A DNA stretch of 49,009 nucleotides from Ferruginibacter sp. (lineage in GTDB: Bacteria > Bacteroidota > Bacteroidia > Chitinophagales > Chitinophagaceae): assembly GCA_030655145.1 (NCBI GenBank), contig JAURWD010000323.1, positions 1 to 49,009 of the forward strand, read 5' to 3'. Under the pieces are notes generated by a model. It was not told where the DNA came from and did no database searches. It saw only the letters and a program-made list of their open reading frames with translations. Each line of letters begins with the position of its first letter. Positions within the stretch are counted from its first letter, which is position 1. Position numbers and translations under genes: made by a program. Below, in pieces: positions 12,633-33,687 of the stretch.

Positions 12633-14183
12633 TCATTTTGTACTGCCCGGTTCAGTTGACAGTACCAGGCCGGCTTCGCTGTCCTCGTATTTTGCAATTA
12701 ATTTTCGCAATTGACCTTTAAGGTTTTCCGTCAATTTTTGATATCCTTTTTTCCCGAACAAATTGTGCATTTCTGAAGGATCTTTTTGAAGATCATACAG
12801 CTCCCAGGCTTCTACCCTTTTATAAAAACGGATGAGTTTGTATCGTTCCGTGCGAATACCAAAATGCGGCGAAACGGCGTGCTCCCCGTTTTCGTAATAA
12901 TGATAATACATGGCCTTCCGGGCGCTGGTTGACCTCTTGGTCACGAGCGGCAGAAATGATCTACCCTGCATCTCAGCAGGAGTGGAGATTCCAGCAGCAT
13001 CGAGGAGGGCTGGACCGAGGTCAACATTCATCACAAAATCATTTGAGACAATGCCAGGTTGAACCTTACCAGGAAAGCGCATAACCATTGGCGTTCGGAA
13101 AGATTCCTCGTACATAAACCGTTTATCAAACCAGCCATGCTCACCCAGGTAAAAACCCTGGTCAGACATATAAATAACGAGGGTATTTTTTGCCAGCTCA
13201 TTTGCGTCGAGGTATTTTAATAAGCGCCCGATGTTCCGGTCAAGCGACTGGCCGGTGCTCATATAATCCCGCATATAATGTTGGTACTTCCATTCCACCA
13301 GCTTCCTTCCGGAAAGATTAGCAGCTTTTAAAGATGCTTCGATCGGCCCGTAATAAGCATCGAATTTTGCACGTTGAGCGGGGTTCATACGACTGACAGC
13401 CGGCTCCATTGCTTTGCTGTAAGAAAGCATCTTGAGATCATAGCCGAGGAGCATGGTTTTATCGATCGTCATGTCCTGAACCCGCGCTGCTTCCCTACCC
13501 GAGTAATTGTCATAAAAGTTTTTGGGGAGATCAAAATTCACGGAGTCGAAGCTGCCGAGGTCGCTGGTATCCGGTATCCAGGTCCGGTGGGTTGCCTTAT
13601 GCCCTACCACGAGGCAAAATGGTTTCGAGCGATCCCGTTGAGCCAGCCAGTCTTCCGCGAGGTCTTCCGTGATCGTGGTTGCATAGCCTTCGATCCTTTT
13701 AACGCTGCTATCCATCATAATGAAATCCGGGTTGTAATAACTTCCCTGCCCCGGCAACACCTGCCAGAAATCAATGCCCTGTGGTTTTGTTTCGAGGTGC
13801 CATTTACCGATCCAGGCAGTTTGATATCCATGTTGCTTCAACTCTTTGATGAAAGTATGTTGATCGCCATTGAAGCGGGAATGCTCATTGTCTTTGAACC
13901 CGTTTTTATGACTGTATTTGCCCGTAAGGAACACGGCCCTGCTGGGCCCGCAGATGGAATTGGTAACATAGGCCTTATTGAAGAGCACTCCTTCTCTTGC
14001 TATGCGGTCAATATTTGGTGTGCGTACCTGTTTAGCGCCATAGGCACTGATGGCCTGGTAGGCATGGTCATCAGAAATGAGGACGATAATGTTCGGCCGC
14101 TGTTGCGCATAACTGGCATGTATAAGCGCCGTGAGCAAAAACAAGGATAGCAATAATTTCCAGGACTGTTTTATTTCACTCAT
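12633..14183 (-). CDS. secreted type I (FGly) sulfatase
   Basis: Signal peptide, RPNIIVLISDDHAYQAISAYG, sulfatase motif CGPSRAVFLTGKYSHKNG, GKWHLETKPQG, YMSDQGFYLGEHGWFDKRFMYEESFRTPMVMRFPG. Confidence 0.95.
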   Translation of the reverse strand: MSEIKQSWKLLLSLFLLTALIHASYAQQRPNIIVLISDDHAYQAISAYGAKQVRTPNIDRIAREGVLFNKAYVTNSICGPSRAVFLTGKYSHKNGFKDNEHSRFNGDQHTFIKELKQHGYQTAWIGKWHLETKPQGIDFWQVLPGQGSYYNPDFIMMDSSVKRIEGYATTITEDLAEDWLAQRDRSKPFCLVVGHKATHRTWIPDTSDLGSFDSVNFDLPKNFYDNYSGREAARVQDMTIDKTMLLGYDLKMLSYSKAMEPAVSRMNPAQRAKFDAYYGPIEASLKAANLSGRKLVEWKYQHYMRDYMSTGQSLDRNIGRLLKYLDANELAKNTLVIYMSDQGFYLGEHGWFDKRFMYEESFRTPMVMRFPGKVQPGIVSNDFVMNVDLGPALLDAAGISTPAEMQGRSFLPLVTKRSTSARKAMYYHYYENGEHAVSPHFGIRTERYKLIRFYKRVEAWELYDLQKDPSEMHNLFGKKGYQKLTENLKGQLRKLIAKYEDSEAGLVLSTEPGSTK

Positions 14184-14232
14184 ATGACTGGCTTAAAAAC
14201 GAACGCGGGGTGTAAAGCTAAGCCCGAAATGA

Positions 14233-15453
14233 TTACGTTGCTGTAAGCATGGCCGCACCTCCGGCCGAGCTATGGGCCCGATAGGTCTGCAGCATCTGGG
14301 CACAATACCATTCCTGCCGCGGCAGGTGAAACGGCCCTTTAAACAGGTTTCCTTTGGCTGACTGTGCCAGGGTTCCATCGCGGTGCAGGTAGCCAAACCA
14401 TTCACCGTGCTCCCCGTCATGAAAATGCGCATATGCGTAGTCGTGAACCAGTTTGTGCATCACTGCGTATTTTTCGTTGCCTGTCATGAGGTAGGCAGAC
14501 ATGGTGGCAATGATGGCCTCATTGTGCGGCCACCAAAATTTCATATCCTGCCAGTATTCCTGAACCGGCTTGTTATACACATCGCGGAAATAAAAAATAC
14601 CGCCATGTTCCGTATCCCATCCCCGCTCCCACATATAGTCAAGCATCCGGCAACCAAGATTCACCAGTTGCGGGTCGTTATCGCGGTACCTGGCCTCGTG
14701 CAGGATGAACCAGGCTCCTTCAATGGCATGCCCGGGATTGAGCGTCCTTCCATCAATGTGATCAATGATGTCTCCACCCGGCGCCACCTGTTCCATCACG
14801 CAGCGGAGTTCATCTTTTACAAAATAAGTTTCAATCTCCTGTATCCATTTGCTGATCCATTCATCGCAGCGCGGATCGCCGATGGTTTCGCGGAGCTGTT
14901 GTGCCGTGTTCATCATGATCATGGGAACACCAATGCCTCGCGACGGTCGTGATTGCGTAAATTTTGGCTCCAATAATCCCGGGATAGTTGCGTACTCCAG
15001 GGATCTGCCAAACAGGTCCCTGGCCCTTGCGGCCGCCGCTTCATCACCACTGGCTTTCGCGTACGCGGCATTGGCAATCACGGCAAAAGTCTCCGAGAAA
15101 AAATAGCGGCGTTTGCGAACCGGGCTTCCGTTCCTCGTAACATGGAAGAACATACGGCCGTCTGAATCAAAGCAGTGGGTGTTTAAAAAGTCGATCCCGC
15201 TTTTCGCCGCTGCCAGCCATTCCGGCTTTTCTTCAACCGAATTGTATAGAGTGGAAAGCAACCAGGCCGCCCGCCCCTGTATCCAGACGGCTTTATCATC
15301 ATCCAGCAGGCTGCCATCTTTATCCCGCATTAATAAATAGCCACCGTATTCCTCATCAACGCTGCGGGGAAACCAAAAGGGCACCGTATCATTCAGCAGT
15401 TGATCCCTGTAAAAAGTTTCCAGGTTTTTTAGATCGTCACTTGTATAACTCAT
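14233..15453 (-). CDS. AGE family epimerase/isomerase (N-acylglucosamine 2-epimerase-like)
   Basis: YGGYLLMRDKDGSLLDDDKAVWIQGRAAWLLSTLYN..., NPGHAIEGAWFILHEA, WDTEHGGIFYFRD, EYWQDMKFWWPHNEAIIATMSAY; next to sialidase and NanA-like genes. Confidence 0.92.
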   Translation of the reverse strand: MSYTSDDLKNLETFYRDQLLNDTVPFWFPRSVDEEYGGYLLMRDKDGSLLDDDKAVWIQGRAAWLLSTLYNSVEEKPEWLAAAKSGIDFLNTHCFDSDGRMFFHVTRNGSPVRKRRYFFSETFAVIANAAYAKASGDEAAAARARDLFGRSLEYATIPGLLEPKFTQSRPSRGIGVPMIMMNTAQQLRETIGDPRCDEWISKWIQEIETYFVKDELRCVMEQVAPGGDIIDHIDGRTLNPGHAIEGAWFILHEARYRDNDPQLVNLGCRMLDYMWERGWDTEHGGIFYFRDVYNKPVQEYWQDMKFWWPHNEAIIATMSAYLMTGNEKYAVMHKLVHDYAYAHFHDGEHGEWFGYLHRDGTLAQSAKGNLFKGPFHLPRQEWYCAQMLQTYRAHSSAGGAAMLTAT

Positions 15454-15534
15454 GGTAAAATGGAGTAATTTTTTTTGATAGGTTGCAGGAAATGAAGCAG
15501 CTCTTTTTTTCTACAAACAATAATGCACTGAAAA

Positions 15535-17106
15535 TCAGCGGATGATACCAGCTACGGGTATGCGCAAAAAGTAAATGTCTCTTGTGCCTTCGTACAAAAT
15601 GCCGATCGTGTTATCATCGATCTTTGTTAAAGCAGAATAGCCAAAAGATTTCCGCTCATCCACCAGCAACTGGTTTACCGACAGCCAGGTTTCTCCCAGG
15701 TCGAGACTCGCTTTGATCGTTAAGTTAATACGCCCTTCGGAGGAATTGGGATTGCTGAAGAACAATACCTCCTTCATCTGTCCTTTTACATTTACCCTTG
15801 TCTTGATGATACTGCCCATGCACACCGGGTCGGGTAAGGCATTGTGAGAAGTATAGTGCTCTGTCCAGCTGCCGCCCATATCTTTCGTCGTGGCGACACT
15901 TCTAAAGCTTCCGCGATTATCACGCATGTTCAGCATCAATGTGCCCGGTGTTGTTTCAACCACCTGGCTCTCGGTTGTATTTGCTTTAGGGCCGTCCAAT
16001 TTACCTTTCCAGCTGCTGCCATGATCATCGCTGAAAATGATGGTCGACCAGGGCATTCTTTTTTCATCCCAGTATTGCGCCGCGAAAACAATTTTTCCAT
16101 CTTTCATCGCTATACCATTTCCCGGGCCATTAAAAAATAAATGCCAGGCGGGATCTTTCACCTGGGGGGTAATGCTTTGTGGGGCTGACCAGGTAAGGCC
16201 GTCGTCATCACTGCTTACCAATACAAACTGCCCCGTTGTATCCGGCGACAAACCCGGCTTTGAGCCCGCGATTGACCTGTTTCCCTTACTCCATAAGGCA
16301 GCCACCCATATTTTTTTTGTAACCGGGTCAAACAAAATTGCCGGGTCACCTACACCGTTGTTTTCATGGGGTGCCCCCATGTCCATGATTATCTTCATGG
16401 GCTCCCAGGTCTTACCGCCATCGGTGCTGCGGTTCATGCCAACATCAATGTTACCGGGCAGGTCACCGCTATTGACATAGCGCACATCGTAAACGCTGAT
16501 CAAGGTGCCCCTATCCGTTGTAGTTATACCGGGGATGCGGTAGCTGTTCACACTGTCATCCCAGGCATTTCGCAGTGCAACACCGCTCAATTTTTTAAAT
16601 GCTGACCGGTGTTCAGTAATGGGCTGTATTTTATTGTTGACATCAGTTAGCCCCGTGGCATGCAATTCAATGCTGTGCTCAATATCAGCATCCTGCTTTA
16701 GTGTGGCGCTCAGCCAGGCGTAATGCCAGCCGGGGCCCAGGTCAATTTTAACCGGTATGGAAAATTTTGTAGCCGGAGATGTAAGCGTTGCTATCAGATT
16801 TTTCGTGCCGAATAACGGCTCCGTACCCGTGAAATAGACTTCTAGTTTTTCAATTGCCCCTACACCCTCTTTGTTAAGGGAGCCTTCGATGCTGCGATAC
16901 CCGGTACCCGTAGTTTCGGCAGGTACGTATATTTTAACACAGAGCACCGCGTTTGTGGCCAGCCTTTTTAAGACAGGCACCGTTGGTGCGAAGGAGAAGA
17001 TTTTCACCGCTCCAGCTTGCCTGGGTTTCGCTGATTGCTGGGCATTGCCAGTCCCGTGGATAAACAATAAGCAGCAGGTGAGAACTGGAATAAATAATTT
17101 TTTCAT
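15535..17106 (-). CDS. exo-alpha-sialidase, GH33-like, with N-terminal domain
   Basis: YRIPGITTTDRGTLISVYDVRY (RIP motif), Asp boxes STDGGKTW, SSDDDGLTW, SDDHGSSW, TKDMGGSW, SLDLGETW, and FGYSALTKIDDNTIGILYEG. Confidence 0.93.
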   Translation of the reverse strand: MKKLFIPVLTCCLLFIHGTGNAQQSAKPRQAGAVKIFSFAPTVPVLKRLATNAVLCVKIYVPAETTGTGYRSIEGSLNKEGVGAIEKLEVYFTGTEPLFGTKNLIATLTSPATKFSIPVKIDLGPGWHYAWLSATLKQDADIEHSIELHATGLTDVNNKIQPITEHRSAFKKLSGVALRNAWDDSVNSYRIPGITTTDRGTLISVYDVRYVNSGDLPGNIDVGMNRSTDGGKTWEPMKIIMDMGAPHENNGVGDPAILFDPVTKKIWVAALWSKGNRSIAGSKPGLSPDTTGQFVLVSSDDDGLTWSAPQSITPQVKDPAWHLFFNGPGNGIAMKDGKIVFAAQYWDEKRMPWSTIIFSDDHGSSWKGKLDGPKANTTESQVVETTPGTLMLNMRDNRGSFRSVATTKDMGGSWTEHYTSHNALPDPVCMGSIIKTRVNVKGQMKEVLFFSNPNSSEGRINLTIKASLDLGETWLSVNQLLVDERKSFGYSALTKIDDNTIGILYEGTRDIYFLRIPVAGIIR

Positions 17107-17145
17107 ACAAATATTATGTTATGGATCGCCGGGTCCGGTGAGTCC

Positions 17146-18396
17146 TCAGGAATGTTTCGCATCAACAAAATCGTTCATTGTCGGGCGCAGGAAATAAAGT
17201 TGTACCAGTAATGCAACCGACACGATAATGGCCAGCAGGGCAAAATCTTTACCAAGGCTTCCGGCGTCAGCGGATTTTCCTAACAGGTTCGTGATGAACG
17301 CACCGGCAAACACGCCGGTCATATTCATTAAGCCGTAAGCGGTTGCCCGGTACTTAGATGACACAAACTGGCAAAGTATGGGCATGTTGTTGGCATCAAA
17401 CATTCCATAACCCATACCAAAGCAAACAGCGGCTCCCGCCACGTGAAAAACGGTATGGCCAAAACCGATGAGCAGCAACGAGGGAATGGTTAACGCGAGG
17501 CCAATGGCACTCGTATATATTCTTCCCCTTATATTTTTTTGCACCCATTTATCGGATAAGATACCACCAAATATTACCCCGATAAATGAAGAAGCTGCAA
17601 TGGTAATGGTTGACAACGGTCCGGCCTGTGACATGGGTATCTTTAGGTTCTCTGCGAAAAGTGTGGGCAGCCAGTTCTTCGTTGCCCAGCCCGGCAGGCT
17701 CGGGATCGCGAAATAAAACAGGATGATCCAGAATGAAATATTGGTGAACAGCAACGCCAACCCTTTGAAGAGACCTGGCTTTTGCCGCAATGGGTACTGA
17801 TCGGTGTCCTGGATCTCTTCACCGCTTTTCTTCTCCCGCAGAAGGGCAACCAATACGAGGGAAAATACAATACCGATGATACCAAACGAATGAAAAGTAG
17901 CCTGCCACGACCAGGTAGCCGCTACCGTAGCGCCGAAGCCTCCGATCGCCTGGCCCATGTACAGGCCGGTCATATGAATGCCAATGGCAAGCGATCTTGT
18001 TTTGGGAGAATGAAAATCCGCTATCAGTGAAAGGCCGGCAGGGATGTATAAGGCTTCACTAACACCCATGATTGCACGCAGCCAATAAAGCTGGTTAAAA
18101 CTGGTTGCATATCCCATGGCAAATGTTACCCCCGACCAAACAAACAGGCTTCCGACAATGATCCATTTACGATTAAACTTATCCGCAATGATTCCTGAAA
18201 CCGGGCTCATAAAGCCATAGATCCAAAGAAACACTGCCATCAGGTAACCGAAATTGGTGGCAGATTGTAGCTCCGAAATGCCTACCTGCATGGCCGGCTT
18301 CATGGTAGACAACATCTGGCGGTCCATGTAATTCAGCAGGGCTACTACCCAAAGTAATCCCACCAGGATCCAGGGATAATATTTTGACTTTTTCAT
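17146..18396 (-). CDS. MFS transporter, candidate sialic acid uptake
   Basis: 12-TM MFS pattern; LNYMDRQMLSTMKPAMQ...GIIADKFNRKWIIVGSL; located inside the sialic acid gene run. Substrate inferred from context only. Confidence 0.85.
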   Translation of the reverse strand: MKKSKYYPWILVGLLWVVALLNYMDRQMLSTMKPAMQVGISELQSATNFGYLMAVFLWIYGFMSPVSGIIADKFNRKWIIVGSLFVWSGVTFAMGYATSFNQLYWLRAIMGVSEALYIPAGLSLIADFHSPKTRSLAIGIHMTGLYMGQAIGGFGATVAATWSWQATFHSFGIIGIVFSLVLVALLREKKSGEEIQDTDQYPLRQKPGLFKGLALLFTNISFWIILFYFAIPSLPGWATKNWLPTLFAENLKIPMSQAGPLSTITIAASSFIGVIFGGILSDKWVQKNIRGRIYTSAIGLALTIPSLLLIGFGHTVFHVAGAAVCFGMGYGMFDANNMPILCQFVSSKYRATAYGLMNMTGVFAGAFITNLLGKSADAGSLGKDFALLAIIVSVALLVQLYFLRPTMNDFVDAKHS

Positions 18397-18440
18397 TTTT
18401 TTAGATTGATTTGCCGGAGGCTACATTATATCACAAAGCA

Positions 18441-19595
18441 TCATTTAAATTTTCCGGCGAGCACCCGCGGGGTTCTAACACCCGCCCTTATTTCTCCGCT
18501 TGCAATGATCAGGTCCGCTCCCCATTGGCACGCCGTGGTTGTAACGGGCACGTCAAAAGGAATGCTACCGGCGGTTGACCATTCGCCGGTGAGGGTATTG
18601 AACCGTAATACTTCATTGCTAAACCCCGGGTGTGTAGCCTGGAGTTTATTTTTTTCTAGAATAAGTGCCTGTTTTTTTGCCGCATCTTTTTCCAGGCTGA
18701 TGGCCGCAATCAATAGTTCCGTCTTGTGAAAAGTTGCTCCTTTATCACCGCCAAGCATCCATATATCCGAAGAGCCTATGGCCAAACCTGCACCGGCGCT
18801 CAAAGCATACGGAAGCGATTTTTTTACTTTCCAGGTTTTAGAGGTGAGATCGAATTCGTAGACTGATGCGTAGAGGTCACTGGCGCTGCCAGCATTTTTT
18901 TTGCGGCCGCCCAGCAAATACACGGACCTCCCCTCCCCGTTTGACTGCACCGCCAACACCGTATGCGATACTTCCGCATGAACCGGGGGTAGTTGCTCCC
19001 ACCCTTCAGATAGGTTGTTTAAATCAAGACTTAAAAACTGGTCTGTAACTGATGTTGCTGTCTCACCACCCGCTACATACAACCGGTTTCCATTTAAGGT
19101 TGCCGCTGCATTGGTAACAGCAACCGGGAGGCCTGGTAAATTTTTGATCACAACGGTTTCCCTGGCGGCATCCCATTGCACCAGGATCACTCTATCGCTG
19201 AGACCGTTATCATTTTCGCCGCCGGCATATATAACGCCTTGCGGGGCTGAAACAACGGCTGCGTAGGCAATGGGAAATGGAAGTTTGTAGGATTTAGAAA
19301 GAATTTGAACCTTGTTATTTTTCTTTTTGAACACATAGACCTTATCATAGTACTTTTTTTTGCCACCAAGCCAGGGCATGCTGCCGGGAAAATTGGCGCC
19401 ACCCGCGACGAGCAACACATTTTCATGAACGCCAATTACAGGGCCGGCAAGACCAAGCGCTGTTGCCTGACCGTTAGTCGCTGGTAGTTCAGCGGCAATC
19501 CTCCATTCGATGGAGTCAACTTGTTGCTGTTGCGCAACGATTGTTTTTGATACAAGCATGACCATAGCTAAAAAAATAATCAGTGAACTTTTCAT
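18441..19595 (-). CDS. nanM: cyclically permuted mutarotase family protein (NanM/YjhT-like kelch protein)
   Basis: Signal peptide; kelch repeats LLVAGGANFPGSMPWLGGKKKYYDKVYVF, IYAGGENDNGLSDRVILVQWD, LYVAGGETATSVTDQF, VYLLGGRKKNAGSASDLYASVYEFD; adjacent to NanA. Confidence 0.88.
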   Translation of the reverse strand: MKSSLIIFLAMVMLVSKTIVAQQQQVDSIEWRIAAELPATNGQATALGLAGPVIGVHENVLLVAGGANFPGSMPWLGGKKKYYDKVYVFKKKNNKVQILSKSYKLPFPIAYAAVVSAPQGVIYAGGENDNGLSDRVILVQWDAARETVVIKNLPGLPVAVTNAAATLNGNRLYVAGGETATSVTDQFLSLDLNNLSEGWEQLPPVHAEVSHTVLAVQSNGEGRSVYLLGGRKKNAGSASDLYASVYEFDLTSKTWKVKKSLPYALSAGAGLAIGSSDIWMLGGDKGATFHKTELLIAAISLEKDAAKKQALILEKNKLQATHPGFSNEVLRFNTLTGEWSTAGSIPFDVPVTTTACQWGADLIIASGEIRAGVRTPRVLAGKFK

Positions 19596-19601
19596 GTTGA
19601 T

Positions 19602-20543
19602 CTAAGCATTTATTGCCGATGGTATCCGCGAACAAAAGCTACTGAAATTAATGGCTTCCACATCTTTTTTAAATTTCTCAAATTGCTCGCCGCTCATATT
19701 GGCTACCGGGAGCCGGAAGCCGCCACAGTCGAGGCCAATTAATTTCATGTAGGCTTTACCGGTAGCAATGCCCCCGTATTTACCCAGCAGGCGGATCATA
19801 TCGATGGACAATTGCTGGAGCTCCTGGGCTTTTTCCAGGTCGTTCCTGTTAAATGCGTCTATCATTTCGTAGTAGAGCGAAGGCGCGTAGTTAAAGGTAC
19901 TGCCGACAGCGCCGGTGGTTCCCAGGGGAAGAGCGGAAAGCATGTTTTCGTCGCGGCCCCATAGCATGTCATAACGACCATTTTCGAACCTTCTGCAGGA
20001 AAGAAAATCCATGAAATCTTCGTGGGTATATTTCACCCCGGCGAAATTCGGTATGCGGCCGTCCACGGCCTGCAGCAGGTCGTACATGGCAAAATTTACC
20101 CCCGTAAGCACGGGGATATGATAATAATAAAAAGGCATCTCCGGCGCAGCGGCCGCGACTTCAGCACATGTTTGTGCGAGCATCTCCACGCTGGCCGGTT
20201 TAAAATAAAACGGGGCGGTAAACGAAATAGCGTATAGCCCGCACTGTGAGGCATGCACCGCAAGTTGCTTGCAGTCTTCAATGCTGGTGCCACCGAGGAA
20301 CATCATCACTCTAAAATTTTCATCCCCGTTGGTGCAATCGGCCCAGGCGGCTGCGACCTGCATTTTTTCTGCGGTGGTCATCGAAACTCCTTCGCCCGTG
20401 GAACCGCAGATGAAGGCACCCGTCACCCCATTTCCTTTGAGCATTTCATAGTAGGCAGGAATGATGGCCGTGTTGATAGCCCCATCCGGGTACATGGGTG
20501 TGAAGGGAGCAGCGATCAAGCCGGTAAGGTGTTGGTGCTTCAT
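19602..20543 (-). CDS. nanA: N-acetylneuraminate lyase (DHDPS/NAL superfamily)
   Basis: MKHQHLTGLIAAPFTPMYPDG, FICGSTGEGVSMTTAEK, PFYYYHIPVLTGVNF, Schiff-base Lys block NFAGVKYTHEDFMDF; start trimmed from 20657 to 20543, out of the upstream repeat region. Confidence 0.93.
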   Translation of the reverse strand: MKHQHLTGLIAAPFTPMYPDGAINTAIIPAYYEMLKGNGVTGAFICGSTGEGVSMTTAEKMQVAAAWADCTNGDENFRVMMFLGGTSIEDCKQLAVHASQCGLYAISFTAPFYFKPASVEMLAQTCAEVAAAAPEMPFYYYHIPVLTGVNFAMYDLLQAVDGRIPNFAGVKYTHEDFMDFLSCRRFENGRYDMLWGRDENMLSALPLGTTGAVGSTFNYAPSLYYEMIDAFNRNDLEKAQELQQLSIDMIRLLGKYGGIATGKAYMKLIGLDCGGFRLPVANMSGEQFEKFKKDVEAINFSSFCSRIPSAINA

Positions 20544-20551
20544 GATGGTAT

Positions 20552-20895
20552 GTTGAATGATGAATGATAATGTTTTATGAATGCAATTCAAAAGCGGTTC
20601 AAGAGGCGGGTGAGAACACCCGCCACGGCTCATGGCCGCGGTTGGTGTTTTCATCAACCTCTAGCCGCGGTTAATGTTTTCACCAACCGCCGAAGTGAAT
20701 GGCTTTAAATGATAAATATTTTATGAATCCAGTTTAAATATCCTTCAAGTGGGGGGTTCTATCACCCGCCACGGCTCGTGACTACGGTTGGTGCTCTCGC
20801 TTGCCGCGGTTGGTGTTCTCTAGCCGCGGTTGGTGTTTTCACCAACCGCTTAAGTCACGAGATTGGAATGATGAATGATAAATGTTTTCACGAAA
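20552..20895. repeat. Intergenic hairpin/repeat array between susD and nanA
   Basis: Three copies of a GAATGATGAATGATAAATGTTTTATGAA-like sequence (about 20552, 20694, 20865) separated by GC-rich inverted repeats: GGCGGGTG-AGAA-CACCCGCC (20605-20624) and perfect GCGGTTGGTG-TTTT-CACCAACCGC (20826-20849), plus degenerate GCGGTTGGTG half-hairpins. Confidence 0.9.
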
Positions 20896-20908: not shown

Positions 20909-22438
20909 CTAAAAAGCCGGGTATCCTTCCGTTTGTTTTAGTTCCCTGTTATTCGTCAGTGAGCCCCGATCAATTGGCCAAAGCAATTTATATGCTTCCG
21001 TTGAGGCGACCGTTGTGTGGGCATAAACATAGCTGTCGCCCATCCTGCGGAGATCGTACCACCGCTTGCCTTCAAAAACAAATTCAAAAAAACGTTCCTG
21101 CAGGATGGCTTCTTTCGCATTCGCGTCGATAGCCTGGTTCGGAAATGCATGTACCGCTGCATCATAATTTGTATCAAAGGCGCGGGCACGTACTGCATTG
21201 ATTTCCGTTGCCGGGTCTTCACCCAGGGCCAATTTCGCTTCAGCCAATAGCAACAGCAGGTCGGCATTGCGGTAGACGGGGTAATCATTTGTAAACTGGC
21301 GCCCGGCGGGTGTTTGCTCACCCTGGAATTTGCTTACAAAAGCGCCTGCGATCTGGTAAGTGCCGCCGACCAAATTATAGGCCGGTTGAATGGTTGCCCA
21401 TTTCCGTGAATCTTTATCATTAAATGAACGGAACGTAGCAATCTTCACCGGTGCCCTTAACAAACCGCCCCAATTGTCGGTAGTGACGTTGAATTTCCTG
21501 GCAGCCAGCGAATCATGAAAGTTTGCTATGAGGCCGGACTGGGGAAGAAATATACCTGCGATCGGTAACGCAGCTTCATCCGTTTTAAAACGAGCCGCGA
21601 AAATAATTTCTGCATTGCCTTTGCTTGCCGGAGAAAAAACATTTGCAAAAGAAGGTAACAGTGACGCACCCACGTTCGCCTGGATATCTGTTAAGGCGGT
21701 TTTAGCAGTTCCGGCATCAGCCGTACCACCGCCACGGTAACTGGTCCATAAATAAACTTCTGCTTTTAACATTAACGTTGCAGCCTTTGACCAGAAAGAT
21801 TTGGTGTTTCGGATCGTATAGTTGTTCCCAAAGTTTGTCTCGGAATTACTGATATCTTCCTTTACCAGTTTGATGACGTCCGCTCCAGGTGAGGCAGCCT
21901 TGGCGAGGTTGGAAATATCAATGGAAGTAGTCGGCTCGGTTTGAATAATCACGCTGCCCCAGCTTCGGTACAATTGGAAATAGTAATAGGCTCGCATGCC
22001 CTGCGCAATTCCGAGATAATACTTTTTATTCTCGTCAGGCACATTGGTAGTGCCGCCCAATTTATTGATGAGCAGGTTCAACTGGTTGATGTTGTTGTAG
22101 AACCCGCCGAAATTTGCGACGCCGGGATTGTCCATATCGAGTGTGTTGAGCCAGAGCCGTTCCGTGCCCTGCGTGGCTTCCCCTGTAAAGGCAGAACTCG
22201 AACCTGGGTCTGTACCAAAAATATCGCCGCGCATTTCACCGAGGTATTGGAACTGGGCAACATTGCTGCGAAACCTGCCATGGATGCCGGTTACAAAGAC
22301 ATCTACCTGCTCCGGTGTTTGCCAGAAGTTTTCATCGCTGATGCTGCTGACGGGGGCAAGGTCTAATTTTTTTGAACAGGAACTGTTGAACAGCACTGAC
22401 CCGGTAGCTATAAGAAGGATGGTTATATTCTTTTTCAT
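20909..22438 (-). CDS. SusD/RagB family outer-membrane lipoprotein
   Basis: Lipobox LFNSSCSKKLDLAP; SusD features DENFWQTPEQVDVFVTGIHGRFR, GMRAYYYFQLYRSWG, AILQERFFEFVFEGKRWYDLRRMGD. Confidence 0.95.
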   Translation of the reverse strand: MKKNITILLIATGSVLFNSSCSKKLDLAPVSSISDENFWQTPEQVDVFVTGIHGRFRSNVAQFQYLGEMRGDIFGTDPGSSSAFTGEATQGTERLWLNTLDMDNPGVANFGGFYNNINQLNLLINKLGGTTNVPDENKKYYLGIAQGMRAYYYFQLYRSWGSVIIQTEPTTSIDISNLAKAASPGADVIKLVKEDISNSETNFGNNYTIRNTKSFWSKAATLMLKAEVYLWTSYRGGGTADAGTAKTALTDIQANVGASLLPSFANVFSPASKGNAEIIFAARFKTDEAALPIAGIFLPQSGLIANFHDSLAARKFNVTTDNWGGLLRAPVKIATFRSFNDKDSRKWATIQPAYNLVGGTYQIAGAFVSKFQGEQTPAGRQFTNDYPVYRNADLLLLLAEAKLALGEDPATEINAVRARAFDTNYDAAVHAFPNQAIDANAKEAILQERFFEFVFEGKRWYDLRRMGDSYVYAHTTVASTEAYKLLWPIDRGSLTNNRELKQTEGYPAF

Positions 22439-22457: not shown

Positions 22458-25400
22458 TTATAAACTGATATGAGCGCCGAATACGAAAGTCCTTGCCGTA
22501 GGGTACGTGCCGGTATAAACGCCGGTTGTAACGCCGTTTACCGTTGGCGGCTCTGGGGTTGGCCCGGTAAATTTGGTAACGTAAAACAGGTTGGTGGCAC
22601 TGACAAATAGCCTTGCATTGGTGAGGACCTTTGTCCTTGTCAATAGTTGCTTGCTGAAGTTGTAGGACAAGGAGATTTCCCGGCAAGCGAGGTAATCCCC
22701 TTTCTCATAAAACCTCGAATTATTGCTGTTCAGGTTGGCGCTTGCATTGTTGCTCCGTGTGTAATTCTTTTTGCCCAGCGGGGCCGCTACCTGGTCGGCA
22801 TAGTACACTTTCGGAATGTCCGTTTCGGTATTCGTGGGAGACCACGCAGATTTCTGCAGGTCAAAATAATTGAAAGTGCCCTGGTAGTTCCCGAGCGTTC
22901 TTGCCACGAGGTCGTTATAAATGGTATGTCCCAACGCATAGTCGAAGTTTGCAAACAGGGAGAAGTTTTTATAGCCTACGCTCGCTGAAAAACCGCCGGT
23001 CCATTTTGGATAAATGTTACCGATGTACACCTGGTCGCGGGAATCAATTGTATCATTTCTATCTACGTCTTCCCAGTTCACATCACCGGGCGTTATATTA
23101 CCAGATCCATAAGTTGAACTCGGGCCGCTGATGCCAGCAACCAGGTCTTTCCGGGTGCCGGCGAGTTTTGCGATCTCATCATTGTCGCGGAAGATCGAAA
23201 CCTGCCGGAAGGCATAAATAGCACCAAGGGGCTGACCTTCCTGTGTACCGCCCACCCACGTCACCCTGCCACTAACGGGATCGAATACCTGCAGTCCGCC
23301 CTGCCTGTTCTTTTCATTGCCATTAAAAGGCAATTGCAATACTTTATTTTTTACAAATGATGCATTGGCCCCAAGATCCACCTTCAGGCCGCCCGGCTGG
23401 TTCAGCACATTCGCGGTTACCGCGAATTCGTATCCTTTGTTTTGGTAAGAGCCGAGGTTGGTGCGTACGGAAGTAAAGCCGGTATAGCTCGGTAAGGGCA
23501 GATTCGTTAGCAGGTCGCTGGTCTCGCGGTTGTAGTAATCAAAGACGAGGGTAATGCGATTCTTTAAAAAACCGATGTCAACACCGATATCTGTTGTCTT
23601 GCTTTTCTCCCAGCGCAGGTCGCTGTTGATGATACCGGTATTTAAGAAACCGGCGTTGCCATTGTATAAACCTGTAGACCCGTATGTGCCCTGCACCTCA
23701 TAGCGGCCAAGGCCGGCTACGTTTCCATTCTGGCCATAGCTCACGCGGGGTTTCAGGGTAGAGATTATATCGGAGATACCACTGTTGTCAAAAAACTTTT
23801 CGCGATGAACGTTCCAGCCGGCCGACATACCGGGAAAGAACCCTACCCTGTTCGCTTCTGTAAGGCTTGAAACGCCGTCCTGGCGGAACACCAGGGAGAG
23901 CAGGTATTTCTGGTCGAAATCATAATTTAATCTGCCGAAGGCGGAGATGATCTTGTATTCAGACTTGACAGAATAATTATCGCCGGCGACAAACGTCGTG
24001 GCTGCGTTCACGGTAGTGATGTCATCAGTTGGAGCATTCGTGCCTGCGGCCTGCACACCGTAGGCCTTGGTGCCAAAATATTCAGCGCCCAGCATTGCAT
24101 TAAGGTTATGGTTTTCACCGAAGCTGGTGGTATAGTTAACGATACCGTTGAATTGCTTTTGGAAATCGCGGGAAAAACTTGAAAACGATGCCCGGCTCGT
24201 GCTCGCATACGATGGCGGCGTCGCGTAAATATTACTATAAGTTTGATTCGCCCGGTTGAATCCTTCATTGATCACTTCATTGAGGTAGCCGGAGCCGGAA
24301 ACTTTTACATAGAGCCCGCGAATGATGTCCCATTTAACGGCGGCATTTGCCGTGATCCTGTTGACCTCGTTGTTGCGGTCCGTTTTGCCCAGCCAATATT
24401 TAGGATTGCCATCAGAGTTGCTGTTGCCAGGATTCGGGATCGTTTTCGCAGAATCGATCCAGGGATTAAAAGTTGGCCAGATGGCCATACTGCGGTAGAG
24501 GGTATTTACTTCTCCCCCGATGGTTCCCACCTGCGAAGCGGTTGACATGTTCACACCTGTACTTACTTCGATGTTTGGTTTTACTTTATAGGAACCATTG
24601 ATATCGCCGGAAAAACGTTTGTACCCCGACCCGATGATGACCCCGTCTTCCTTGTAATAATCAAAGCTGGCGAAGTATTTTCCTTTGTCGTTTCCACCCA
24701 TAACATTTATGTAGTGGTCCTGTGTTTTGGTGTCGCGGAAAACAATGTTTTCTACTTCACCTTTATGGTCTTTGAAGATAATGGTGCCACCGTAGGGATC
24801 GCCGACCGTGTCCCAGCCTTTACTCAAAAGTCCGGATGTGGTTGCATCATACCGCCTGATATCAAAGGAGGCGAGGTTGGCGGCATCCGGTAACAAGCCA
24901 TAACCGCGGGACGAATTCACCTGCGCCAGGGTTCTTCCTGAATTGAAGTTGCCCAGCCGGTTGTAATAAATAAAATCTTTCGCCCCCAGGTAATTGTACC
25001 CCTCCCGGCGACTATTGAATCCCTCTGTGAATTTGTAAGAAATCTCTGCCTTCCCCACCTTTCCTTGTTTGGTTGTGATGAGAATGACACCATTATTCGC
25101 CCTGGCACCGTAGATCGCGGTTGCTGCGGCATCTTTCAATACTTCGATGGAGGCAACGTCGTCGGGGGCAATGTCATTATATGCACGGATGATCCCGTCC
25201 ACTACTACCAGGGGTGACCCCGGGCTGTTGATAGATGCCCCGCCGCGTAAGAGGATGTTCGGCGTTGCTCCAGGCTGACCAGATACATTTACCACTTGCA
25301 TTCCCGAGATGGTTCCCTGTAAGGCGGTTCCCAGGTTCGACCTTGGTGCGGTGGCCAGCACCTGGTTGTCGAGTTTCGCAATGGAGCTTGTCACGTTACG

Positions 25401-25754
25401 CCTGGATTGCGTGCCATACCCTACAACTACTACCTCGTCCAGTTTGGCCGTTTCTGCAGCTTCAAGCGAGAGCTCCACGTCAGCAGTGCCGTTCACCTTG
25501 GCCTCCTGCGCCGCAAAACCAGTGTAAGAAAAAACCAGCACCTCTCCACGAGCCGCGTCAATAGAAAACCGGCCTTCCTCATTCGTTTGGGTTCCACCCG
25601 TTTTTCCTTTAACCGTTATCGTGACGCCGGGCAAGGGCTTGCCATCTGTTTCGGAAATTATCCGACCAGAGATCTTTGTCGCCTGGCCCCGGGAATTTAC
25701 CGACAACAGAAAGCATAAAGCGAAAAAGCCTACTTTCAGTAAATGAACTTTCAT
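22458..25754 (-). CDS. SusC/RagA family TonB-linked outer-membrane protein
   Basis: Signal peptide, carboxypeptidase-like domain ISGRIISETDGKPLPGVTITVKG, TonB-plug VVVGYGTQSRRNVTSSIAKL, DVASIEVLKDAAATAIYGARANNGVILITTKQG, beta-barrel C-terminus. Confidence 0.97.
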   Translation of the reverse strand: MKVHLLKVGFFALCFLLSVNSRGQATKISGRIISETDGKPLPGVTITVKGKTGGTQTNEEGRFSIDAARGEVLVFSYTGFAAQEAKVNGTADVELSLEAAETAKLDEVVVVGYGTQSRRNVTSSIAKLDNQVLATAPRSNLGTALQGTISGMQVVNVSGQPGATPNILLRGGASINSPGSPLVVVDGIIRAYNDIAPDDVASIEVLKDAAATAIYGARANNGVILITTKQGKVGKAEISYKFTEGFNSRREGYNYLGAKDFIYYNRLGNFNSGRTLAQVNSSRGYGLLPDAANLASFDIRRYDATTSGLLSKGWDTVGDPYGGTIIFKDHKGEVENIVFRDTKTQDHYINVMGGNDKGKYFASFDYYKEDGVIIGSGYKRFSGDINGSYKVKPNIEVSTGVNMSTASQVGTIGGEVNTLYRSMAIWPTFNPWIDSAKTIPNPGNSNSDGNPKYWLGKTDRNNEVNRITANAAVKWDIIRGLYVKVSGSGYLNEVINEGFNRANQTYSNIYATPPSYASTSRASFSSFSRDFQKQFNGIVNYTTSFGENHNLNAMLGAEYFGTKAYGVQAAGTNAPTDDITTVNAATTFVAGDNYSVKSEYKIISAFGRLNYDFDQKYLLSLVFRQDGVSSLTEANRVGFFPGMSAGWNVHREKFFDNSGISDIISTLKPRVSYGQNGNVAGLGRYEVQGTYGSTGLYNGNAGFLNTGIINSDLRWEKSKTTDIGVDIGFLKNRITLVFDYYNRETSDLLTNLPLPSYTGFTSVRTNLGSYQNKGYEFAVTANVLNQPGGLKVDLGANASFVKNKVLQLPFNGNEKNRQGGLQVFDPVSGRVTWVGGTQEGQPLGAIYAFRQVSIFRDNDEIAKLAGTRKDLVAGISGPSSTYGSGNITPGDVNWEDVDRNDTIDSRDQVYIGNIYPKWTGGFSASVGYKNFSLFANFDYALGHTIYNDLVARTLGNYQGTFNYFDLQKSAWSPTNTETDIPKVYYADQVAAPLGKKNYTRSNNASANLNSNNSRFYEKGDYLACREISLSYNFSKQLLTRTKVLTNARLFVSATNLFYVTKFTGPTPEPPTVNGVTTGVYTGTYPTARTFVFGAHISL

Positions 25755-25777
25755 AATTGCAATTTTAGGTAGATTTG

Positions 25778-25796
25778 TATTATGTATGACATAATA
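25778..25796. promoter_or_regulatory. candidate FadR/GntR-family operator at susC promoter
   Basis: Perfect inverted repeat TATTATGT-ATG-ACATAATA (8-3-8) with GT-N3-AC core; lies between divergent susC and the GntR regulator. Confidence 0.65.
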
Positions 25797-25827
25797 AAGG
25801 TAGGGGGAATTTTTTTAAATTTCCAAA
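25795..25827 (-). promoter_or_regulatory. candidate Bacteroidota-type promoter for the susCD-nan genes
   Basis: On minus strand TTTG (25827-25824), 21-bp spacer, TACCTTTA (25802-25795), one mismatch to the TAnnTTTG -7 consensus; operator overlaps its 3' side. Confidence 0.5.
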
Positions 25828-25938
25828 CAAAAAACAATATATTCTACAATACATTGATTTAAAGCTATATAACCGAATGAATATTAAGAAGAAGTATGAA
25901 ATAATTTTTCATAAATTTGCATTAAGTAATACATATTA

Positions 25939-26649
25939 ATGATGGATACTCTTTTAACAAAGAAAGATTTTACCATAGTGGACACTAGTTCACTTGTAGA
26001 TAAAGTGGAGGCCAGTCTCGTTCAATTGTTGCAGGAACGAAAGCTAAAAGTGGGCGATGCGATCCCAAAGGAAATTGAGTTGGGTGAAACCCTGGGCGTA
26101 AGTCGGACCGTGATCCGGGAGGCCCTCTCCCGCCTGCGGATGATGGGATTGATTGAAACGAAAAAGAAAAAAGGCGCGGTGATCACGAGTCCTGACCTCT
26201 TTGGCATCATGGGAAAAAGCATGAATCCGCACATCCTGAGCCAGGAGACTTTAAAAGAAATATTTGAAATCAGGCTGGTGCTGGAGATCGGGATGGCGGA
26301 TCTGTTATTCCGCCGCATTACCCTGGAGGACATTGAAGAGCTCAAGGCCATCGTCAGCAATGAACCACCCGCCACCCAATATCATTTGTTCAACATAGAA
26401 CATGAAATTGCCTTTCACGGTAAGTTGTACGAGATCACCGGCAATGAGACGATGAAGAAATTTCAAAAAATGTTGTTACCGGTTTTTGATTATGTCCACA
26501 ACAGCGGGTTATTGAAAAAACAACCACTGCTGAAAACATTTCTCTCCCATAAAGGATTGGTTGACATCCTGGAGAATGGCAGTCCCGAGGCATTCCGGAA
26601 TGGTATGCGGGATCACCTTGAAAATCATTTTGCCCGTTTGTTCGAATAG
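25939..26649 (+). CDS. FadR/GntR family transcriptional regulator
   Basis: LVDKVEASLVQLLQERKLKVGDAIPKEIELGETLGVSRTVIREALSRLRMMGLIETKKKKGAVI (wHTH) plus a helical FCD-like effector domain; divergent from susC. Confidence 0.93.
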   Translation: MMDTLLTKKDFTIVDTSSLVDKVEASLVQLLQERKLKVGDAIPKEIELGETLGVSRTVIREALSRLRMMGLIETKKKKGAVITSPDLFGIMGKSMNPHILSQETLKEIFEIRLVLEIGMADLLFRRITLEDIEELKAIVSNEPPATQYHLFNIEHEIAFHGKLYEITGNETMKKFQKMLLPVFDYVHNSGLLKKQPLLKTFLSHKGLVDILENGSPEAFRNGMRDHLENHFARLFE

Positions 26650-31572: not shown

Positions 31573-33687
31573 CTATCCGGGTAATTGAATGGTGAATTCC
31601 GTATACAGCCCTTCGACGCTTTGAACGGTAATTTCACCACCGTGCGCTTTTATAATATCATAGCTTAAGGAAAGGCCAAGTCCGGTTCCCTGTCCTGTTG
31701 GTTTGGTGGTAAAGAAAGGTTGAAAAATTTTGTCAATCACGTGTTGCGGGATGCCGATGCCATTGTCTTTTACAGAGAGTTCTACCATATGGCCAATTCT
31801 TTTGGTACTGACTGAAACAAGCGGTTTAAACGGCTCGCCGTTCACGCCGGTTTTCTTATGTACTGCATAAAAAGCATTGTTGTATAAATTCAATAACACC
31901 CTTCCGATATCCTGGGGTACTATTGTTATTTTGCCGACGCTGGCATCAAACTCCGAAACAAAATCCGCATCAAATGATTTGTCTTTAACCTTTAACCCGT
32001 GGTAACTTAAGCGGAGGAACTCGTCAGCAAGCGCATTGATATCGGTGGGTTCTTTCTGGCCCGAACTTGACCGCGAGTGTTGCAACATTCCCTTTACAAT
32101 GGAGTCGGCTTTTTTCCCGTGGAGGCTGATCCTTCCTAAATTTTCTTCCAGGTTTCTTACAATTTCCACCGCTTCTCCCCGGTCTGCTGCAGCTAATTTG
32201 TTCAGGCTCGTGCCCCTTAGTTCTCCGAGCAATTCGACGCTTAGTTCGGAGAAATTATTAACGAAATTCAACGGGTTTTGAATTTCGTGGGCTATACCGG
32301 CCGTAAGCTCACCCAACGAGGCCATTTTTGCTGTATGGATCAATTGCTTTTGAGTTACCTGTAATTCCGTGAGTGCATCCTCTGCCTTGGCTTTTTGTTT
32401 GTCCGTTTCCTGCTTTTGCACCTGTAAAATTTTAAAAGCTTTTTGTTTATGCTTATTGTTCCGTAACAATATGACCAAAATGATCATCGTTAACCCAAGT
32501 ATGACGCCCAATAAAATATTTAAGTTTCGCTCATTTCTTTTTTGACGGTTGACCATATTCAATTCTACCTGTTTTTGAGCAACCAAAAAATTGGTGCGCA
32601 GGTCAGCCATCCTTTGAACGTTATTGATGTCATTGATGCTGTCGCGGTATGCGATGTGTTGCTTATAATAATCAAAGGATAAATTTATGTTTCCCGTCCG
32701 CTCGTAAAGGTTAGATAAACCGAGGCTCGCATTTGCAACCTGTTCCTTTAGCCCAAACTGTTTTGCAAGCTGGAAGCTCCGCAATGCATATCCTAAAGCA
32801 GTTTGAACATTTCCCCTCTCGAGGTAGACGTTAGAAATGGAAACCAGGTAATCACAGATGGGTTGATAATCCTGGGTTTCTTCCAATATCCGGATGGCCT
32901 CATTCATGTTCTTTTCTGCTGCACTGTGTTGCCCGTTGGCAGCATACACCATCCCAATATTACCCAGGCTATAGGCGATCCCGGTTCGGTAATTTACCTT
33001 CCCGAAAATTACTTCCGCCTCCTTAAAATATAAAAGAGCGGAGTCATACTTCCTGATTCGGAGGAGTTCATCCCCGGCATTCAATAGTGCAGAAGCAAGA
33101 CTGATGGAGTCGTTGGCCTGGCGAAGCGTAGTGATTGATTTGTTGTAATAAGAACTGGCATTCGGGTGATCTTTTGCTGTAGAGTAGATATCTGCGACCG
33201 CACCATAGGAATCACCTTCGGCAGTTGCATGGCGCAGTTTTTTTGCCACTTCTGCACTCTTAAAAAAAGCACCGAGGGCCTCATCCAGGTTCCCTAGTAA
33301 TCGTTGTTTTGTTCCTTTTAAAAAATAGCCCGCACCAAGATACCGGGTGTTGCCCGTAGACTCGGATAGGCTGATCAACTCTTCTGCAAATTTCAACGCA
33401 CGTTTAAGGTCTCTTACTTCGTTAAAAGCTAAATCCCGGAGGAGGACGAATCGTGCAGTATCTGGTAGCGTTTGTTGTTCGTAAATACGGGAGAGACTAT
33501 CCGCTATTTTTTGCTCCTGCGCAACAGCGGCGGAAACCAGGAATAACAAAACGGAAAGCAGGTAAACACATCTTTTTGGGTAAGCAATAAATTTGCAGGC
33601 AAACAATTTAGATCGGGGTGGATTGTGCCAGCGAGTTGGAACATGCATGCGGGGAACTTTTTTATGAAGGCCTGCTGATTGGATCAT
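31573..33687 (-). CDS. TPR-containing sensor histidine kinase
   Basis: Signal/TM region, TPR repeats (ASALLNAGDELLRIRKYDSALLYFKEAE...), TM, H-box GELTAGIAHEIQNPLNFVNNFSEL, HATPase N/G boxes NNAFYAVHKK, DNGIGIPQHVIDKIFQPFFTTKPTGQGTGLGLSLSYDIIKAHGG. Confidence 0.95.
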   Translation of the reverse strand: MIQSAGLHKKVPRMHVPTRWHNPPRSKLFACKFIAYPKRCVYLLSVLLFLVSAAVAQEQKIADSLSRIYEQQTLPDTARFVLLRDLAFNEVRDLKRALKFAEELISLSESTGNTRYLGAGYFLKGTKQRLLGNLDEALGAFFKSAEVAKKLRHATAEGDSYGAVADIYSTAKDHPNASSYYNKSITTLRQANDSISLASALLNAGDELLRIRKYDSALLYFKEAEVIFGKVNYRTGIAYSLGNIGMVYAANGQHSAAEKNMNEAIRILEETQDYQPICDYLVSISNVYLERGNVQTALGYALRSFQLAKQFGLKEQVANASLGLSNLYERTGNINLSFDYYKQHIAYRDSINDINNVQRMADLRTNFLVAQKQVELNMVNRQKRNERNLNILLGVILGLTMIILVILLRNNKHKQKAFKILQVQKQETDKQKAKAEDALTELQVTQKQLIHTAKMASLGELTAGIAHEIQNPLNFVNNFSELSVELLGELRGTSLNKLAAADRGEAVEIVRNLEENLGRISLHGKKADSIVKGMLQHSRSSSGQKEPTDINALADEFLRLSYHGLKVKDKSFDADFVSEFDASVGKITIVPQDIGRVLLNLYNNAFYAVHKKTGVNGEPFKPLVSVSTKRIGHMVELSVKDNGIGIPQHVIDKIFQPFFTTKPTGQGTGLGLSLSYDIIKAHGGEITVQSVEGLYTEFTIQLPG

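Follow-up and report, generated by a model that had tools for sequence, protein, structure and literature searches.

A conserved palindrome at a sialic-acid operon of Ferruginibacter sp. is a predicted operator of the divergent FCD-type GntR regulator

The window, which is the whole stretch of 49,009 nucleotides that was analysed, carries eight minus-strand genes separated by short gaps. They lie to the left of a palindrome, O1, with a divergent GntR-type regulator gene to its right. A SusC-type NanO, a SusD-type NanU, a lyase, an epimerase, a transporter and a sialidase are all encoded, as in NanOU loci, and the domain content of their products marks the eight genes as a presumed NanOU-type operon for sialic-acid utilisation. 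Several of the gene names are domain matches under equivalog cut-offs, and the lyase and mutarotase score below theirs. The features are as follows.

12633–20657, minus strand: remaining genes of the presumed operon, for a NanA-like lyase, NanM-like mutarotase, MFS transporter, sialidase, N-acylglucosamine 2-epimerase and sulfatase (Pfam/NCBIfam)
20909–22438, minus strand: nanU, SusD-family sialic-acid binding lipoprotein (NF033072 NanU, 474.6 bits, above the cut-off of 425)
22458–25754, minus strand: nanO-like SusC/RagA TonB-dependent receptor, first gene of the operon (TIGR04056, 733 bits, cut-off 368)
25778–25796, no strand: predicted operator O1, TATTATGT-ATG-ACATAATA (exact palindrome and conservation)
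25795–25802, minus strand: nanO promoter -7 element TACCTTTA (TAnnTTT against O1 in 49/66 distinct regions)
25824–25827, minus strand: nanO promoter -33 element TTTG (at 17–25 nt in 49/66 regions)
25912–25919, plus strand: gntR promoter -7 element TAAATTTG (TAnnTTTG at most 12 nt upstream of O2 in 26/53 regions)
25920–25938, no strand: predicted operator O2, CATTAAGT-AAT-ACATATTA (GT-N3-AC site, matrix score 15.0)
25939–26649, plus strand: gntR, GntR/FadR-subfamily regulator with an FCD domain, predicted repressor (PF00392, PF07729)

Positions 25778–25796 read TATTATGTATGACATAATA, with perfect arms of 8 bp around a 3-bp spacer, and the inverted repeat described in the first-pass annotation was exact in both letters and coordinates. 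Besides its own reverse complement, O1 had zero matches at three or fewer mismatches in the 49-kb window, and dinucleotide shuffles gave a match in 0 of 100. Exact TATTATGTNNNACATAATA was matched once only in the 5.3-Mb genome, at O1. When the window was scanned with the operator matrix, zero operators were found beyond O1 and O2; a stretch at 31854–31872, inside a histidine-kinase gene, is a three-mismatch match. A chance palindrome was ruled out by the shuffles, the single genomic copy and the genome-wide distribution of the site.

O1 is a palindrome with AT-rich arms and a GT-N3-AC core, as in FadR-subfamily operators. The FadR-subfamily core assigned to it in the first-pass annotation does fit the palindrome (Suvorova 2015, PMC4494728). 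The further likening to PdhR-type sites stands in part: the comparison with GGT..ACC is partial, as the half-site here is ATGT and the residue at the FadR Arg35 position is hydrophobic.

The family of the window and GTDB genomes together supplied regulator orthologues at 80 loci (L001–L080), the window included; the others are 72–84% identical at the protein level. O1 was present in 76 of the 79 orthologous FCD-type GntR loci with an upstream region, the window counted, so that the palindrome passed the comparative test for conservation upstream of orthologous susC genes. The site was also retained in orthologues down to 62–70% identity. Across 66 distinct regions with different flanks, the core columns hold about 2 bits while the flanks mostly hold 0.1–0.6 bits, save for the adjoining promoter bases. 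Little or no variation occurs at positions 3–8 of the left arm and over most of the right one, the central ATG is strongly conserved too, and the GT and AC of the core are invariant in 66/66 distinct sites, these having been picked by overall similarity to O1. Each site is the best O1 match in its upstream region, which somewhat inflates the column conservation and leaves the whole-genome exact-match counts unaffected. The genomes are related and some occur in more than one collection, so their counts are not independent. In the 80 loci the matrix gave a single weak site outside the gntR–nanO region.

A second GT-N3-AC site, O2, missing from the first-pass annotation, was found in the window. 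It adjoins the gntR ATG directly and makes up essentially the entire predicted gntR 5′ leader. Of 68 distinct intergenic regions, 53 have a site of this type at the same place, next to the start codon of gntR (consensus ATTAAGT-AAT-ACATAWTA) and was not found in the other 15. O2 is degenerate, its left half reading TTAAGT, and with a score of 15.0 on the O1 matrix against 28.1 for O1 it is the weaker site. The O1–O2 distance ranges from 79 to 249 bp across loci and tracks intergenic length (r = 0.95), each site holding a fixed distance to its own gene while the intergenic length varies. Suvorova et al. (PMC4494728) take such a pattern as the mark of divergons in which each arm has an operator of its own. 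Helical phasing of the spacing gave R of about 0.45 at 10–11 bp; it was not counted as evidence of looping because most spacings stem from related genomes.

Both sites lie at promoter elements. The TTTG-N21-TACCTTTA promoter that had been described as overlapping the palindrome was recovered on the minus strand, with TTTG at 25827–25824, then 21 nt, then the -7 element at 25802–25795, whose final two bases fall within the O1 palindrome. The two elements follow the Bacteroidota sigma-ABfr pattern (TTTG at -33, TAnnTTTG at -7), the nanO -7 box having 5 of the 6 specified bases; consensus and numbering (T-12 to G-5) are those of Flavobacterium johnsoniae promoters (PMC6847099). A TTTG located 17–25 nt further up from the nanO -7 element occurs in 49 of 66 regions, where shuffling predicts 3.6. 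On the gntR side, 26 of 53 regions have TAnnTTTG no more than 12 nt upstream of O2, where shuffling predicts 0.8. Both expectations ignore ancestry. For gntR, TAAATTTG is conserved, but a -33 element is not clear. By this numbering, nanO transcription is predicted to start at about 25790, with a 36-nt leader, and gntR transcription at about 25924, with a 15-nt leader. Relative to these predicted starts, O1 would extend from about -6 to +13 at the nanO (susC) promoter, and O2 from about -4 to +15 at that of gntR. To the left of O1, TAGATTTG at 25770–25777 is a conceivable plus-strand promoter, but the conserved bases at that spot suit the A-rich nanO leader as well.

Another conserved palindrome, TTGAT-N-ATCAA, was seen in 14 of 68 regions at 65–97 bp upstream of gntR, against 0.6 expected from shuffling (L007, L015, L020, L021, L042, L046, L077 and others). 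The window holds only the half TTGAT, at 25854–25858. A different regulator that controls gntR may bind this palindrome.

The product of 25939–26649 combines an N-terminal winged helix-turn-helix (PF00392, 56.2 bits, cut-off 27) with a C-terminal all-helical FCD domain (PF07729, 64.7 bits, cut-off 24.3), which places it in the FadR/FCD subfamily of the GntR superfamily. The recognition-helix residues S55, R56, T57, V58 and R60 are invariant in the orthologues. The position of FadR Arg35, placed via the conserved E-x-E-L motif and not by a separate FadR alignment, is hydrophobic (Ile46 here, otherwise Leu, Met or Val). In FadR this Arg reads the outer G of GGT-type sites. The hydrophobic residue fits both the ATGT half-sites and the Arg–G correlation described for this position (PMC4494728). 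Residues R112, E156, H160, H204 and H226, invariant in 92/92 orthologues, align with R128, D172, H176, H222 and H244 of E. coli NanR, which hold Zn2+ and the carboxylate of Neu5Ac (PMC8012715); the zinc/carboxylate site of E. coli-type NanR is therefore present, E156 being a conservative change from Asp. This zinc/Arg site is common to many FCD regulators and not specific to NanR, and it argues for a carboxylate rather than for Neu5Ac specifically. The AF2 model (mean pLDDT 85.7) matches FCD structures, and the top TM-scores among the matches listed were 0.55, by query length, for chain D of 6WFQ (NanR–DNA) and 0.53 for chain A of 6ON4 (NanR–Neu5Ac). The global scores are modest, probably because the domain orientation differs.

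From these features it is highly probable that O1 and O2 are operators through which GntR represses nanO and regulates its own gene, and from which it is released by a carboxylate ligand, most likely Neu5Ac. A dimer at O1 would lie over the nanO start point as well as the end of its -7 box, blocking initiation of the operon for sialic-acid uptake and breakdown. A dimer at the weaker O2 would cover the gntR start point and give negative autoregulation, so that nanO would be under stronger control and gntR under weaker autoregulation. Binding of the carboxylate at the conserved zinc site and Arg112 would release the protein and induce the operon. Binding by GntR, the sign of the regulation and the identity of the ligand are inferred. 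The anatomy of the sites favors repression of initiation at both promoters, and a site at +1 fits a repressor, an activator role being less probable.

A variant with the same protein at both sites differs in the signal: the ligand could be, for example, ManNAc, GlcNAc-6-phosphate or pyruvate released by the lyase, or GntR could be a ligand-dependent activator. Ligand pockets vary among FCD proteins, the His214/Asn215 stretch of E. coli NanR aligns poorly with GntR, and remote relatives neighbor other susC genes. Nevertheless, a carboxylate such as Neu5Ac would suit the conserved zinc site and Arg, whereas ManNAc and GlcNAc-6-phosphate have none, and the neighborhood of SusC, NanU-type SusD and lyase is fixed over most loci. 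This variant is considered unlikely, while keeping some weight. Within L001–L080 the nanO genes encode SusC proteins of two groups, about 57–71% or about 34–48% identical to NanO of the window, and the lyase remains 59–78% identical. The receptor pair seems, from these identities, to have been exchanged while the switch was kept.

If GntR is the protein that binds O1 and O2, the sites are expected to follow the regulator, and their distribution across genomes bears on this. Exact TATTATGTNNNACATAATA was found in 29 of 299 family genomes, once per genome; all 29 fall among the 73 with a GntR relative, and in 26 the site is directly upstream of the gene for that relative. The reversed control pattern occurred once in the family genomes, and outside the family the exact site was found in 1 of about 380 sampled genomes of the phylum. 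At five loci the operator precedes susC or nanO–nanU with gntR unlinked or distant (L101, L105, L107, L114 and L115). Three of these (L107, L114, L115) have a site before nanO–nanU and no gntR nearby. In the Pedobacter frigoris genome an O1–O2 pair precedes nanO (L105) and gntR sits on a separate contig with its own site (L072), while L101 has a site before susC 18.5 kb from a gntR that keeps its own (L064). The 3 of 79 loci without O1 (L074–L076) are orphan gntR paralogues outside the nan locus in three Pedobacter genomes, and these genomes do carry O1 at their nan loci (L103, L104 and L106). Sites upstream of nanO–nanU with an unlinked or distant regulator indicate that the palindrome tracks a regulator acting in trans, and their presence there together with their absence from orphan gntR genes shows that the palindrome tracks operon and regulator, not the intergenic region itself. 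The family sample contains 18 loci that score above the NanU cut-off, and 17 of them have an operator; L117 has no operator site. At L116 the better site is upstream of a sialidase gene that precedes nanO, and a weaker one is at nanO. Together with the conservation, these unlinked sites and orphan genes, which make stronger tests than conservation does, support the first-pass proposal that the palindrome is the operator of the divergent GntR; the mechanism proposed with it, a block to polymerase that a sialic acid would relieve, is well motivated as a hypothesis.

The same distribution weighs on another reading, in which the palindrome would be bound by a different transcription factor with a share in nan control, such as one of the ROK or AraC type. 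Other families do perform this job in the phylum, the sialic-acid regulator NanR of Bacteroides being a ROK protein (BT0433; PMC3878776). Nevertheless, GT-N3-AC is a FadR-subfamily core (PMC4494728), exact sites in the family are confined to genomes with a GntR relative, the gntR copies of L064 and L072 retain a site each with no nan neighbor, and O1 and O2 both lie between gntR and nanO, one per promoter. A different factor is accordingly held to be improbable. An RNA hairpin in the nanO 5′ leader, serving as an attenuator or as a stability or translation element, is more doubtful still and was rejected: the minus-strand arms form an 8-bp stem of -4.3 kcal/mol, but the folding z-score is just -1.5, a transcript from the predicted start, which falls within the palindrome, would not include both arms, O2 folds no better than shuffled sequence, and arm changes in the 66 regions were one-sided in 38 cases and compensatory in 1, which shows that sequence is conserved and not pairing.

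Some further sites were recorded. Exact palindromes at L113 (G472) and L109 (G219) are probably unrelated, since the surrounding DNA that was examined has neither nan genes nor gntR. L087 (G191) has an extra exact operator at 1467–1485, 3.6 kb from gntR and some 74 bp ahead of genes for two secreted proteins; judged by eye, these proteins resemble GH16 glycoside hydrolases and are possible extra members of the regulon. At L105 a third operator (12728–12746) lies between lipoprotein-like and sulfatase-like genes, 5.4 kb from the nanO operators. At L100, L116 and L119, which encode more distant FCD GntR proteins (46–51% identity), sialidase or susC genes are preceded by similar GT-N3-AC sites, and the operator type therefore extends past close orthologues.

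As a predicted repressor, GntR was compared with known systems. E. coli NanR (6ON4, 6WFQ), the FCD GntR repressor of the sialoregulon, has the same fold, with Arg128 and the three zinc-site His kept and Asp172 replaced by Glu; it likewise controls genes for sialic-acid uptake and lyase, and its operator coincides with the polymerase site or lies downstream of it. In contrast, the NCBIfam NanR model NF003011 gives 96.5 bits, below its cut-off of 260, though it is the best NCBIfam match. E. coli NanR recognizes (GGTATA)2-3 direct repeats, unlike the GT-N3-AC palindrome with ATGT half-sites here, and owes its cooperativity to a 32-residue N-terminal extension, whereas the N-terminal part of GntR is shorter. 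GntR would also govern an uptake system of the SusC/SusD type. It is proposed that GntR works like E. coli NanR, yet it is not classed as NanR, given the missed cut-off and the different operator type.

In Bacteroides, NanR (BT0433) also controls sialic-acid use (PMC3878776), and deletion of nanR in B. fragilis makes the nan operon constitutive (PMC3969230). As that protein is of the ROK family, the same task would fall here to a non-homologous regulator. One polysaccharide-utilisation locus of Bacteroidota is already known to have a GntR-family repressor: AusR of the alginate utilisation system of Zobellia galactanivorans (Dudek 2020, as cited in the review PMC8286568), which is relieved by breakdown products. 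It differs in its substrate, alginate. The operators of the FadR subfamily (PMC4494728) share the AT-rich palindrome, the TKGT/ACMA boxes, the 3-nt spacing and the separate sites for the divergon arms, but the half-sites here have A as their outer base (ATGT), and GntR and its orthologues carry Ile, Leu, Met or Val in place of FadR Arg35. The FadR set of the Suvorova 2015 survey contained zero Bacteroidetes proteins (PMC4494728).

No published description of this regulon was found in searches of open-access papers. For environmental Bacteroidota that use sialic acid, the analysis yields a predicted regulator–operator pair and a genome-wide target matrix; operator data on FadR-subfamily regulators are scarce in this phylum. 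The natural series of operators with, without and far from the regulator allows testing of how sites track the protein. Tentatively, Chitinophagaceae and Sphingobacteriaceae might have recruited an FCD sialic-acid switch independently of both ROK NanR and E. coli NanR, with an ATGT half-site code of its own that dispenses with the FadR Arg35 contact, twin operators holding both start points and possibly O1–O2 looping. If confirmed, the switch would provide an inducible promoter for genetics in these bacteria.
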